Shown here one piece after another: positions 29,891-33,767 of a DNA stretch of 64,000 nucleotides. The stretch covers positions 558,001-622,000 of the forward strand of contig NZ_CP051680.1 in the NCBI RefSeq assembly GCF_012849095.1, in the 5' to 3' direction. Made by a program: the position numbers and the translations under genes. Origin of the DNA: Cohnella herbarum. Lineage in GTDB: Bacteria > Bacillota > Bacilli > Paenibacillales > Paenibacillaceae. The notes beneath the pieces were generated by a model. The model had not been told where the DNA came from. It ran no database searches and saw only the letters and a program-made list of their open reading frames with translations. Every line of letters starts with the position of its first letter. The stretch's first letter is position 1.

Positions 29891-31132
29891 ATGGATACAG
29901 GTAACAAACAAGAAGGAATCTCAAGACGCGATTTTCTTAAAATAACCGCTTCCGTAGGCGTGGGTTTAGCCATCGGGGCATCGGGAATGGCCGCGATCGA
30001 GAAAGTTGTCTCTCCTACAAGCAAGGCGGTAGCAGGCAACGATCCGACGGAAGATCGTATCCCCATGTACGGGGAGCATCAATCCGGGATTATTACCCCG
30101 CAGCAAACGTATATGTATCTCGCTAGCTTTCGAATTACGACCGCGGATCGTGCAACGTTGATTAGGGTCCTTCGCGATTGGACGAAGTTTAGCGATCTGA
30201 GCATGGCTGGCCGAACGATGCAGACGGGAGATAATCCGTTGCTTCCTCCGAGCGATACGGGAGAGACTTTGGATCTTCCCGCATCGAAATTAACGGTGAC
30301 CTTCGGATTCGGCCCTACCTTCTTCAGCGCGGATGGCAAAGATCGATTCGGCATCGCCGGTAAGCTTCCTCGATATTTGAAGGATATTCCGCGGATGCCG
30401 AGCGATAAGCTCGATGCTTCCCAGTCAGGCGGAGACGTTTGCATCCAAGTATGCGCCGAGGATCAACAGGTCGCTTTTCACGCATTGCGCAACTTCATTC
30501 GCCTCTCGATGGGGGCGGCTACGCTGAATTGGATGCAGGAAGGCTTCATCAGCGGCGGCTCGGGAGGACAAACTCCGCGTAACCTGTTCGGATTTAAGGA
30601 CGGAACCGCCAACCAACTTCATCAGTCTGAAGGCGGTTATCAAGACGTCGTGTGGGCGGGCGAAGGCGAACCGGACTGGATGCGCGGGGGCACCTACATG
30701 GCTTATCGCAAAGTACGGATGTTTCTTGAGGTATGGGATCGGTCATCGTTAGCCGATCAGGAGGATACGTTCGGACGTTATAAGGAGTCTGGCGCAGCCT
30801 ACGGGACGAAGGGCGAGTTCGATAAGCCCGATCCGTCGAAAATGCCGATCGCGTCGCATGTGCGGCTGGCCAAGGAATCGAAGCAGTTGATCCACCGCAG
30901 AGGTTACTCTTACACGGATGGAGTCGATCCGCGAACAGGTAACGTGAACGCGGGATTGTTGTTTATAAGTTATCAGAGAAACCCCGATGAGCAATTGTTG
31001 CCGATGCTGAAGCTTATGCAGAGCAAAGATGCGCTGAACGAATACGTCTCCCATATCGCTAGCGGACTATTCGCTTGTCCGGGCGGCTTACGGGAAGGGC
31101 AATACATTGGGCAAAGCATACTGGAATCATAA
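29891..31132 (+). CDS. efeB: Dye-decolorizing heme peroxidase EfeB
   Basis: A 413-residue DyP-type peroxidase with a twin-arginine signal (SRRDFLK, then a hydrophobic region), so it is exported folded. The GxxDG motif appears as GFKDGTANQ. EfeB oxidises ferrous iron or handles heme outside the cell for the EfeUO importer. It ends the operon before a strong terminator at 31234. Confidence 0.93.
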   Translation: MDTGNKQEGISRRDFLKITASVGVGLAIGASGMAAIEKVVSPTSKAVAGNDPTEDRIPMYGEHQSGIITPQQTYMYLASFRITTADRATLIRVLRDWTKFSDLSMAGRTMQTGDNPLLPPSDTGETLDLPASKLTVTFGFGPTFFSADGKDRFGIAGKLPRYLKDIPRMPSDKLDASQSGGDVCIQVCAEDQQVAFHALRNFIRLSMGAATLNWMQEGFISGGSGGQTPRNLFGFKDGTANQLHQSEGGYQDVVWAGEGEPDWMRGGTYMAYRKVRMFLEVWDRSSLADQEDTFGRYKESGAAYGTKGEFDKPDPSKMPIASHVRLAKESKQLIHRRGYSYTDGVDPRTGNVNAGLLFISYQRNPDEQLLPMLKLMQSKDALNEYVSHIASGLFACPGGLREGQYIGQSILES

Positions 31133-31233
31133 AATGGCATAGGCTGAGTCGAACGAGAGAAACTTGGATGCTTTGGCTGGAGTCTTGGATTTCTAGGCTG
31201 GAGACTAGGATTTGTTGGCGAGAAAATACGATT

Positions 31234-31276
31234 ATGAGGCGGTCCGGGATTATTCCCGTGCCGCCTCATTTTTTTG
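31234..31276 (+). terminator. Terminator of the efe operon
   Basis: ATGAGGCGG (31234-31242) pairs with CCGCCTCAT (31261-31269), with a nested CGGGA/TCCCG hairpin and a run of seven T. Confidence 0.93.
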
Positions 31277-31324
31277 CAACATGCTGCTGGTTACTTATAA
31301 AAAGCGGTCTGGAAGTACCTTGGG

Positions 31325-31944
31325 AGGAAATAGAGCGACTATGCCGCTTTAAATCGAGCATGGAGGCACTTTGGAAAGAAATAGAGCGGCTGTGCCGCTT
31401 TAAATCGAGCAAAGAGGCACTTTGGGAGGAAATAGAGCGGCCGTTCCGCTTTAAATCGAGCATGTAGGCACTTTGAGAGGAAATAGAGCGGCTATGCCGC
31501 TTTAATTCGAGCATAGAGGCACTTTGAGAGGAAATAGAGCGGCTGTGCCGCTTTAAATCGAGCATGTAGGCACTTTTGGGAAGAAATAGAGCGGCTGTGC
31601 CGCTTTAAATCGAGCAAAGAGGCACTTTGGGAGGAAATAGAGCGGCCGTGCCGCTTTAAATCGAGCAAAGAGGCACTTTGGGAGGAAATAGAGCGGCCGT
31701 GCCGCTTTAAATCGAGCATGTAGGCACTTTGGGAGGAAATAGAGCGGCTATGCCGCTTTAAATCGAGCAAAGAGGCACTTTGGGAGGAAATAGAGCGGCC
31801 GTGCCGCTTTAAATCGAGCATGTAGGCACTTTGGGAGGAAATAGAGCGGCTATGCCGCTTTAAATCGAGCAAAGAGGCACTTTGAGAGGAAATAGAGCGG
31901 CTATACCGCTTTAAATCGAGCATAGAGGCACTTTGGGAGGAAAT
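31325..31944. repeat. 51-bp tandem repeat array 1 (12 units)
   Basis: Twelve contiguous units of 51 bp, one of them 52 bp because of an extra T near 31575. Each carries AAATAGA followed by a 5-3-5 hairpin (GCGGC, 3-nt loop, GCCGC), then TTTAAATCGAGCA and GGCACTTT. The repeats abut with no spacers. As 51 is divisible by three, the reverse strand stays open with a 17-residue periodic translation; no start signal supports a gene. A single partial unit recurs at 32078-32107. Confidence 0.95.
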
Positions 31945-32127
31945 ACTTCCGTTCAACAAGGCACATTTTGCCCTAATTTCGGCGCACTCGCCATACTTCC
32001 TTTCAACAGAGTAAATTCGGAATTGGCAACTAAGAGTATCGAGACTAAGAAGGGAAAAAGAGTGACCTGAGTAGTAACGGCTATGCCGCTTTAAATCGAG
32101 CAAACAGGATAACTCCCACTATAGTCT
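31945..32127. other. Spacer between the two arrays
   Basis: About 180 bp without a supported gene. It contains two related segments (ATACTTCCGTTCAACA and ATACTTCCTTTCAACA, about 56 bp apart) and one partial array-1 unit (GGCTATGCCGCTTTAAATCG). Confidence 0.7.
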
Positions 32128-32161
32128 GAAATTCCGCTTTATCACACTAAAGCGGAATTTC
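32128..32161. repeat. 14-bp stem-loop between arrays
   Basis: GAAATTCCGCTTTA and TAAAGCGGAATTTC pair perfectly around TCACAC. It shares the CCGCTTTA core with array 1 and directly precedes array 2. Confidence 0.85.
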
Positions 32162-32175
32162 TTGTTGCTTTATCT

Positions 32176-32845
32176 CACCAATTAGACCGCTCACAGCGGC
32201 TTCCAGCACACTTTCCCTAGGAATCCGACCAATTAGACCGCTCTAAGCGGCTTCCAGCACACTTTCCCTAGGAATCCGACCAATTAGACCGCTCTAAGCG
32301 GCTTCCAGCACACTTTCCCTGGATATCTGACCAATTAGACCGCTGGTAGCGGCTTCCAGCACACTTTTCCTAGGAATTCGACCAGATAGACCGCTCGCAG
32401 CGGCATACAGCACACTTTTCCTAGATATCCGACCAATCAGATCACTCGCAACGGCTTAGAGCACACTTTCCCTCGGAATCCGACCAAATAGACCGCGCTC
32501 ACAGCGGCTTCCAGCACACTTTCTCTAGGAATCCGACCAAATAGACCGCTCACAGCGGCTTCCAGCACACTTTTCCTAGGAATCCGACCAAATAGACCGC
32601 TCACAGCAGCTTATAGCACACTTTCCCTCGGAATCCGACCAAATAGACCGCTCCCAGCGGCTTCCAGCACACTTTCCCTCGGAATCCGACCAAATAGACC
32701 GCTCCCAGCGGCTTCCAGCACACTTTCCCTGGATATCTGACCAATTAGACCGCTCGCAGCGGCATACAGCACACTTTTCCTAGATATCCAACCAATTAGA
32801 AAGCTCGAAGCGGCTTACAATACACACATTTGCTCCGCAAGTCCG
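32176..32845. repeat. 51-bp tandem repeat array 2 (13 units)
   Basis: Thirteen contiguous units with unit starts every 51 bp from 32181 (one unit is 53 bp). Each reads AATTAGA or AAATAGA, a 5-3-5 hairpin (CCGCT, variable 3-nt loop, AGCGG), CTTCCAGCA, CACTTT, then CCCTAGGAATCCGACC. The loop varies between units (CAC, CTA, GGT, CGC, CCC) while the stem is kept. The last units are degenerate. No gene is supported. Confidence 0.95.
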
Positions 32846-32867
32846 TTTTCCCGCCAGTAACCGTTGC

Positions 32868-33767
32868 TCAGAACCGCAAAGATGTGCTGTGGGAGGAATT
32901 AGAGGGGCTACCCCGCAACGTGAACACCGCTAGCTCGGGATCGCTGCCGATCCGAATCGGAATACGAGTCGTTCCGATCCCCCGGTTGACATACAGCAGG
33001 TACGGCCGTTCCTTTCGCTGGCTGTCATGGATGAGATACTTTCCTTTAAGGTACTTCCTTCCGAGACGGGTTCTGACCAAAGCTCCGACAAGCGGAAGCG
33101 ACACTTGCCCCCCATGACTATGTCCCGATAGTTGCAAGTCGACAGGGAACCGCGTCAATCGGTCGGCAACGTCGGGTTCATGAGCGAGCAAAATATTAAA
33201 TCCGTCTTTATCCAGTTTGGATAAAGTAGATTCAGCATTCGGCTTGCCAAGTACGTAATCATCCAGACCGGCAATCGTAATCGAATCGCCGCCGGGTAAC
33301 GTAATTTTCTCCCTCTCGTTGACGAGCATCTTGAATCCCGCGCGGCTAAGGAACGAACCGGAGCTCCGAGTTTTCCTTCCGTATCCGAAATCGTGATTGC
33401 CGTAAACCGCATATTTGCCTAGCGGGGCTTGAATATCTGCCAATAGGGGAGAAGGATCATATTTGGCGATATTATCTGCACTTCCGGCATCGTGCAAATC
33501 TCCGGTAAACACGACGATATCCGGACGTATAGTTTGAATAACGTCGACGAGCTGCCGAAGTCTAGGAAGAGTGAATTGGGGGCCGAGATGGGTATCGCTG
33601 AATTGCAGGAGCGTGACTCCCTCGAAGCTTTCCGGAAGAGACGGGGAATAAACCTCAAGTCGGGTTATGGACAAGCGTTTAGGAACGATGGTAAATCCAT
33701 AAGCGTATATGAATACAATTATAGCGGCAAAAACAGTCGCTAACCCTAAGAACAGTTGAACATGCAT
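32868..33767 (-). CDS. Calcineurin-like metallophosphoesterase, membrane-anchored
   Basis: A 299-residue protein with an N-terminal membrane segment and the full metallophosphoesterase motif set: FSDTHLG, FTGDLHD, YGNHDFG and LSGHSHGGQ. It resembles YkuE/YaeI-type enzymes. The usual C-terminus ends around PELAVFTLRG; here about 13 further residues (SPSNSSHSTSLRF) are encoded by a degenerate unit of repeat array 1 in the same frame as the array's periodic translation. The adjacent arrays lie directly downstream of its stop. Confidence 0.9.
   Translation of the reverse strand: MHVQLFLGLATVFAAIIVFIYAYGFTIVPKRLSITRLEVYSPSLPESFEGVTLLQFSDTHLGPQFTLPRLRQLVDVIQTIRPDIVVFTGDLHDAGSADNIAKYDPSPLLADIQAPLGKYAVYGNHDFGYGRKTRSSGSFLSRAGFKMLVNEREKITLPGGDSITIAGLDDYVLGKPNAESTLSKLDKDGFNILLAHEPDVADRLTRFPVDLQLSGHSHGGQVSLPLVGALVRTRLGRKYLKGKYLIHDSQRKERPYLLYVNRGIGTTRIPIRIGSDPELAVFTLRGSPSNSSHSTSLRF
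32877..32915. repeat. Degenerate array-1 unit inside the phosphoesterase 3' end
   Basis: This 39-bp segment matches an array-1 unit at 31 of 39 positions without gaps, including GGGAGGAA and TTAGA followed by a hairpin (GGGG-CTA-CCCC). It lies in coding sequence. Confidence 0.75.

Follow-up and report, generated by a model that had tools for sequence, protein, structure and literature searches.

Tandem arrays of many sequences and one unit length of about 51 bp in gene spacers of Cohnella

The unit length of bacterial tandem repeats usually differs between loci. Among the minisatellites of this kind, the MIRU elements of Mycobacterium tuberculosis are intergenic tandem units of about 50 to 80 bp that occur at many loci and in several unit lengths, and to our knowledge no conservation of a paired stem has been described for them. 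REP elements, which are short extragenic palindromes, are moved by the Y1 (RAYT) transposase. Several other systems bear on the question of how a repeat unit keeps its form. REPINs show compensatory changes in their hairpins, and the length of the spacer matters (PMC3116915). The boxB units of the pneumococcal BOX element are 45-bp intergenic tandem units found at multiple loci, and one intergenic 51-bp VNTR is described alongside them (PMC1315331). The tandem repeats of Borgs evolve rapidly and are scattered over the genome as perfect units of differing lengths, 20, 18, and 21 nt among them, some lying within genes (PMC9879509), and most units of eukaryotic satellite DNA are either of nucleosomal length or 5 to 10 bp long (PMC8122249).

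We analyzed a window of 64,000 nucleotides from Cohnella herbarum (NZ_CP051680.1) in which two tandem arrays lie side by side on the forward strand. Array 1 (31316..31945) contains 12 units of 51 bp and ends in a partial unit; the hairpin of its unit is AGCGGC-N3-GCCGCT, after the flank AAATAGA. Array 2 (32168..32832) contains 13 units of 51 bp with a CCGCT-N3-AGCGG hairpin after AATTAGA or AAATAGA, one of these two flanks being present in 11 of the 13. The inner stem GCGGC-N3-GCCGC is perfect in 9/12 units of array 1, where it can be extended to nine pairs including one G-T, and the array 2 stem is perfect in 9/13. The unit is well conserved over its whole length, with a mean column identity of 94% in array 1 and 86% in array 2, and TRF, run independently, returned a period of 51 for both. 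The original prediction of an exact 51-bp period describes 21 of the 23 spacings (ten of 11 in array 1 and 11 of 12 in array 2) and fails at the other two, one of 52 in array 1 and one of 53 in array 2. The unit alignments do bear out an AAATAGA-like flank directly 5' of a 5-3-5 hairpin in both arrays, and a common flank of this kind is unlikely to be a coincidence (at least 6/7 matches in any of four comparisons of composition-matched flanks has P = 0.004). The hexamer CACTTT, also proposed as a shared part, is rejected as such: its start is 19 nt past the stem for array 1 but 10 nt for array 2, and chance gives a pair of such 51-mers at least one common 6-mer with a probability of 0.30. Between the arrays there is a degenerate solitary unit of the array 1 type (32043..32108, forward strand; E = 0.001), and at 32128-32161 a hairpin of 14 pairs is followed by a T-rich tail.

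The arrays together fill the spacer between two convergent genes, an EfeB-like Dyp-type peroxidase with a TAT signal (29891..31132, forward strand) and a calcineurin-like phosphoesterase (32868..33767, reverse strand). The former has its own terminator-like hairpin with a T run before array 1 (31233..31275, forward strand). The coding end of the latter, corresponding to its C terminus, contains a stretch that resembles array 1 in 22/26 bases (32891..32916, forward strand), and matches to this protein in relatives end at residues 284 to 292 of 299. The gap between the two genes is 1735 bp in C. herbarum. Four other Cohnella have the same convergent pair free of arrays, with gaps, measured between the matches, of ~27 bp in C. 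terricola, ~85 bp in G022, ~29 bp in G016, and ~761 bp in G023. Directly downstream of efeB, C. caldifontis has a 52-bp array (L106 5403-5588) and G012 a 50-bp array (L179 2836-2959), each of another sequence. These array-free, 52-bp, and 50-bp versions imply that arrays of differing sequence have been gained or lost in a single spacer.

Units related to both arrays are present at many places in the C. herbarum genome. At E ≤ 0.1, the array 1 model has at least 98 matches and the array 2 model at least 76, with 150 first-pass candidates scored for each, so that this is an extragenic palindrome in many copies. The two types lie close together at five sites (34.6-35.4 kb, 128.8-131.0 kb, the window, 2652 kb, and 3590 kb) and at two further places in G029, but their order and orientation vary among these co-occurrences, which rejects a fixed two-part module; two adjacent arrays need not be one designed module. 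Outside this genome, at E 1e-5, the array 1 model matched 4/59 relatives, all of them Cohnella, and the array 2 model 1/59, under filters stricter than those used for C. herbarum, which missed array-2-like arrays in G029 that TRF detected. Neither model matched any of 23 genomes of other families at the same E value. Searches of an open-access library yielded no account of arrays like these for Cohnella or Paenibacillus, in line with the expectation of an undescribed repeat.

A census of tandem arrays with TRF (period of at least 20) shows one period in many sequence clusters. Among 2.44 Mb of Cohnella DNA, partly picked around matches, 120 of 162 arrays had a period of 50 to 53 (111 of 51, eight of 52, and one of 50). 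This length is also common in a 1.28-Mb sample placed at round coordinates, independently of hits, where 25/49 arrays were in the range and 23 of them at exactly 51. Outside Cohnella, only 1/7 arrays in 338 kb fell in the range, with a period of 53. Grouping all 121 at 30/51 identity gave 21 clusters, 20 from Cohnella and one formed by the sole non-Cohnella array alone. Further subfamilies thus keep 51 bp, and with related units at many places and a period that is nearly constant, the original prediction stands where it supposed a group with relatives elsewhere and no freely varying length. Density is uneven, from eight arrays in 140 kb of G023 to no 50- to 53-bp arrays in 140 kb of Cohnella G009; 13 arrays in 540 kb would correspond to ~200, with a wide error, in the 8.35-Mb chromosome.

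Arrays of other periods were also encountered. One in G023 (L158 19570-19873) has a period of 46 bp, the other sampled arrays of that genome being of 51. An array of 67-bp period (L061 5026-5189; G000:C1:324025-324188) has a repeat that is CRISPR-like in appearance and that we take to resemble a type I-C CRISPR repeat. Two longer cases are a 26-copy array of 60-bp units that is probably coding (L050, G000:C1:3025305-3026862) and arrays of 36-bp and 90-bp units within a long open reading frame that is collagen-like in appearance (L068, G000:C1:2661630-2662970).

We examined whether the length is held from the variants within and between arrays. Over ~700 units there were 100 indel events against 2420 substitution events, and length variants occur in ~14% of units. 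That ratio predicts ~35 changes of period among the 94 arrays of eight related groups, and four arrays had a non-modal period; the prediction rests on a rough indel/substitution ratio and on TRF periods that leave compensating internal indels uncounted. Indels are also seldom common to units: in 80 arrays of at least four copies, 9/62 indel variants were present in two or more units, compared with 473/1212 substitution variants (p = 7e-5). Seven of the nine shared indels return to 51 a unit whose TRF consensus has 50 or 52 letters, and some of these cases reflect just such a consensus, whose length is sometimes unequal to the TRF period; the remaining two (L081 and L082) shift away from 51. 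That so many sequences keep nearly the same length suggests that a unit of about 51 letters is protected in some way.

The stem also appears to be held within the group that contains arrays 1 and 2. With the frame set by the flank alone, for the 42/55 arrays of the largest cluster that were usable, 138/160 cells were paired, compared with 96.7 ± 4.2 in shuffles. In an alignment of 38 real units, drawn from a list of 42 after omission of one member of an identical locus family and three apparently misframed units, 92.5% of cells were paired (72.0% in shuffles), and the covariation score of 0.487 (0.168 in shuffles) was reached in none of 500 shuffles. However, pairs changed on both sides and further pair types were not above shuffles, structures slid by +3 and −3 columns retained some of the signal, and the one difference between array 1 and array 2, inherited by many rows, makes up much of the covariation. 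Five fully paired stem types, in frames chosen partly by pairing, are seen (GCGGC/GCCGC, CCGCT/AGCGG, CCGGC/GCCGG, CCGAC/GTCGG, and GCGGA/TCCGC), which points to several paired changes in this group. This agrees with the view that the two arrays are subfamilies within one group of repeats in which the length of the unit and the geometry of the hairpin are kept; between the two, the stems differ by paired changes. Across 72 consensus units from C. herbarum, the mean palindrome score was 5.7 against 4.3 for shuffled units, with 35/72 reaching the shuffled 95th percentile and 10/72 above the 99th. Several clusters have a palindrome that does not surpass that of shuffled units, so the arrays are not limited to hairpin units. 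An outer-arm pattern, GARWTA...TAWYTC, picked after many clusters had already been viewed, fits 68/121 arrays and 9/21 clusters, compared with 2.5% of 2000 intergenic 51-mers.

Taken together, we regard the chances as about even that these are genus-wide, extragenic, mostly hairpin-bearing, satellite-like arrays in which local copying transmits a unit only if it is about 51 bp long. The two arrays of the window would then be members of a Cohnella-wide class whose sequence turns over while the unit stays at 51 bp, or sometimes 52. A unit seeded in a gene spacer would expand in place by unequal exchange or slippage and then be homogenized locally; only units in register at about 51 bp would be copied, with length variants lost and substitutions spread. 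Stem pairing may allow hairpins to form in DNA while it is single-stranded, or in RNA. The cell would not need to benefit, and spacers at the 3' ends of genes may simply be where arrays are tolerated. Against this, homogenization alone fails to explain the equal length of dissimilar clusters unless they had a common ancestor, only 9/21 clusters fit the outer-arm template, and palindromes are enriched without being universal. A putative length-measuring process in Cohnella, based on a copying enzyme or on a protein lattice, may build or maintain 51-bp arrays of any sequence; we consider this less likely than not.

A protein lattice as the ruler, taken as an explanation by itself, seems to us unlikely. 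A nucleoid protein or a topoisomerase, comparable to gyrase at the BIME-2 elements of Escherichia coli, would sit on each dyad, regularly spaced units would be kept, and arrays at the 3' ends of genes would absorb supercoiling. It would account for a length kept while sequence changes and for dyads maintained through paired changes, and the binding of gyrase by BIME-2 arrays, as reported in PMC2817692, offers a precedent. It is also consistent with placement: arrays occupy 22/201 convergent, 53/719 co-directional, and 7/208 divergent gaps (convergent versus divergent, p = 0.003), counted from 119/121 arrays, 111 of which fell in a gap, with genes called as longest ORFs and with loci picked for model matches among those included. 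However, there is little sequence common to the clusters for one protein to read, some clusters are without a clear dyad, and neighboring arrays share no phase. Of 30 pairs within 800 bp, 14 of which join different clusters, 16 were usable; they carried over neither the 51-bp phase (p = 0.67) nor a helical phase (p = 0.3 to 0.7), and phasing on one face or jointly across arrays is rejected. The expectation of about five turns per unit, with hairpins on one face of the DNA, is not supported: 51 bp corresponds to 4.86 turns at 10.5 bp/turn and to 5.0 only at 10.2, and the helical phasing proposed as a check was absent from these 16 pairs.

A role in RNA, in which 3'-untranslated hairpins would end transcripts or protect mRNA where genes converge, is in our judgment rather improbable. 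Each array gives a better fold than its shuffled versions do (z = −8.0 and −4.7), and positions 31000-33000 contain 18 terminator-like matches against 2.2 expected, mostly on the minus strand within the arrays. Arrays in co-directional gaps also lie closer to the upstream stop in 41/65 cases (p = 0.046). On the other side, where 60 to 250 nt separate a gene end from the array it faces, 27/69 ends have a terminator-like hairpin in that interval, against 142/885 array-free ends, and the efeB-like gene has its own before array 1. The genes are again longest-ORF calls in a set that includes loci picked for model matches, and 33/102 gene ends, that of the phosphoesterase in the window among them, lie within 60 nt of an array and are not judgeable. 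The T tracts are weak, and units show no preferred orientation to the upstream gene (10 same and seven opposite for the array 1 type; four and two for the array 2 type). A terminator role is thereby weakened. We give an equally low probability to common descent alone, by which the descendants of a single 51-bp ancestor diverged and inherited its length without constraint. The relatedness of the array 1 and array 2 types and the reach of the outer-arm pattern speak for it, but length variants, present in ~14% of units, are under-represented in comparisons between arrays and in the set of variants that units share.

As short extragenic palindromes in which a conserved tag adjoins a hairpin of variable but paired stem, the units do resemble REPs and REPINs, but mobilization by a RAYT transposase is very improbable and is rejected, as the C. 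herbarum genome has no match to the Y1 transposase model PF01797 (the control was positive in 5/14 known genomes) and the unit alignments of both arrays have AAATAGA/AATTAGA flanks and lack a GTAG or CGTC tag at the base of the hairpin, as do both consensus sequences. Other known classes were rejected: a CRISPR array, since the whole 51-bp unit repeats without unique spacers; an Rfam RNA family, with no model matching 31000-33000 at E up to 1; and plasmid or phage origin, with no similar DNA to 31300-32850 in plasmid or phage records at E 1e-3. A coding repeat is rejected as well, as 62/63 consensus units are open in some frame yet so are 98% of shuffled ones; 45/66 real arrays are open throughout, and the existence of 52-bp arrays counts against it.

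One length across arrays that look unrelated makes Cohnella a natural system for asking what sets the length of a repeat unit, with in-register recombination, a protein ruler, and descent as the candidates to compare, and the arrays offer many candidate typing loci. Of the systems considered at the outset, REP, BIME, and REPIN elements of Gammaproteobacteria and others are, as described, likewise extragenic and palindromic, present in many copies and sometimes in regular arrays, with compensatory changes in their hairpins. The Cohnella units differ from them in running head to tail instead of in alternating orientation, in having neither tag nor, in C. herbarum, a Y1 match, and in that their clusters have length in common, not sequence. 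Pneumococcal boxB is similar in its intergenic tandem units at multiple loci, but BOX is one sequence family with boxA and boxC ends, whereas the Cohnella arrays form about 20 clusters and showed no fixed modules at their ends. MIRU elements share the intergenic tandem arrangement at many loci but have several unit lengths. Borg repeats are also tandem repeats that evolve fast and are scattered over the genome, but their units are perfect, partly genic, and of differing lengths. Eukaryotic satellites of nucleosome length resemble the arrays in that unit length is kept during sequence turnover. We know of no nucleosome-like ruler in Cohnella; if a length-measuring process does operate there, it would be a bacterial counterpart of those satellites.
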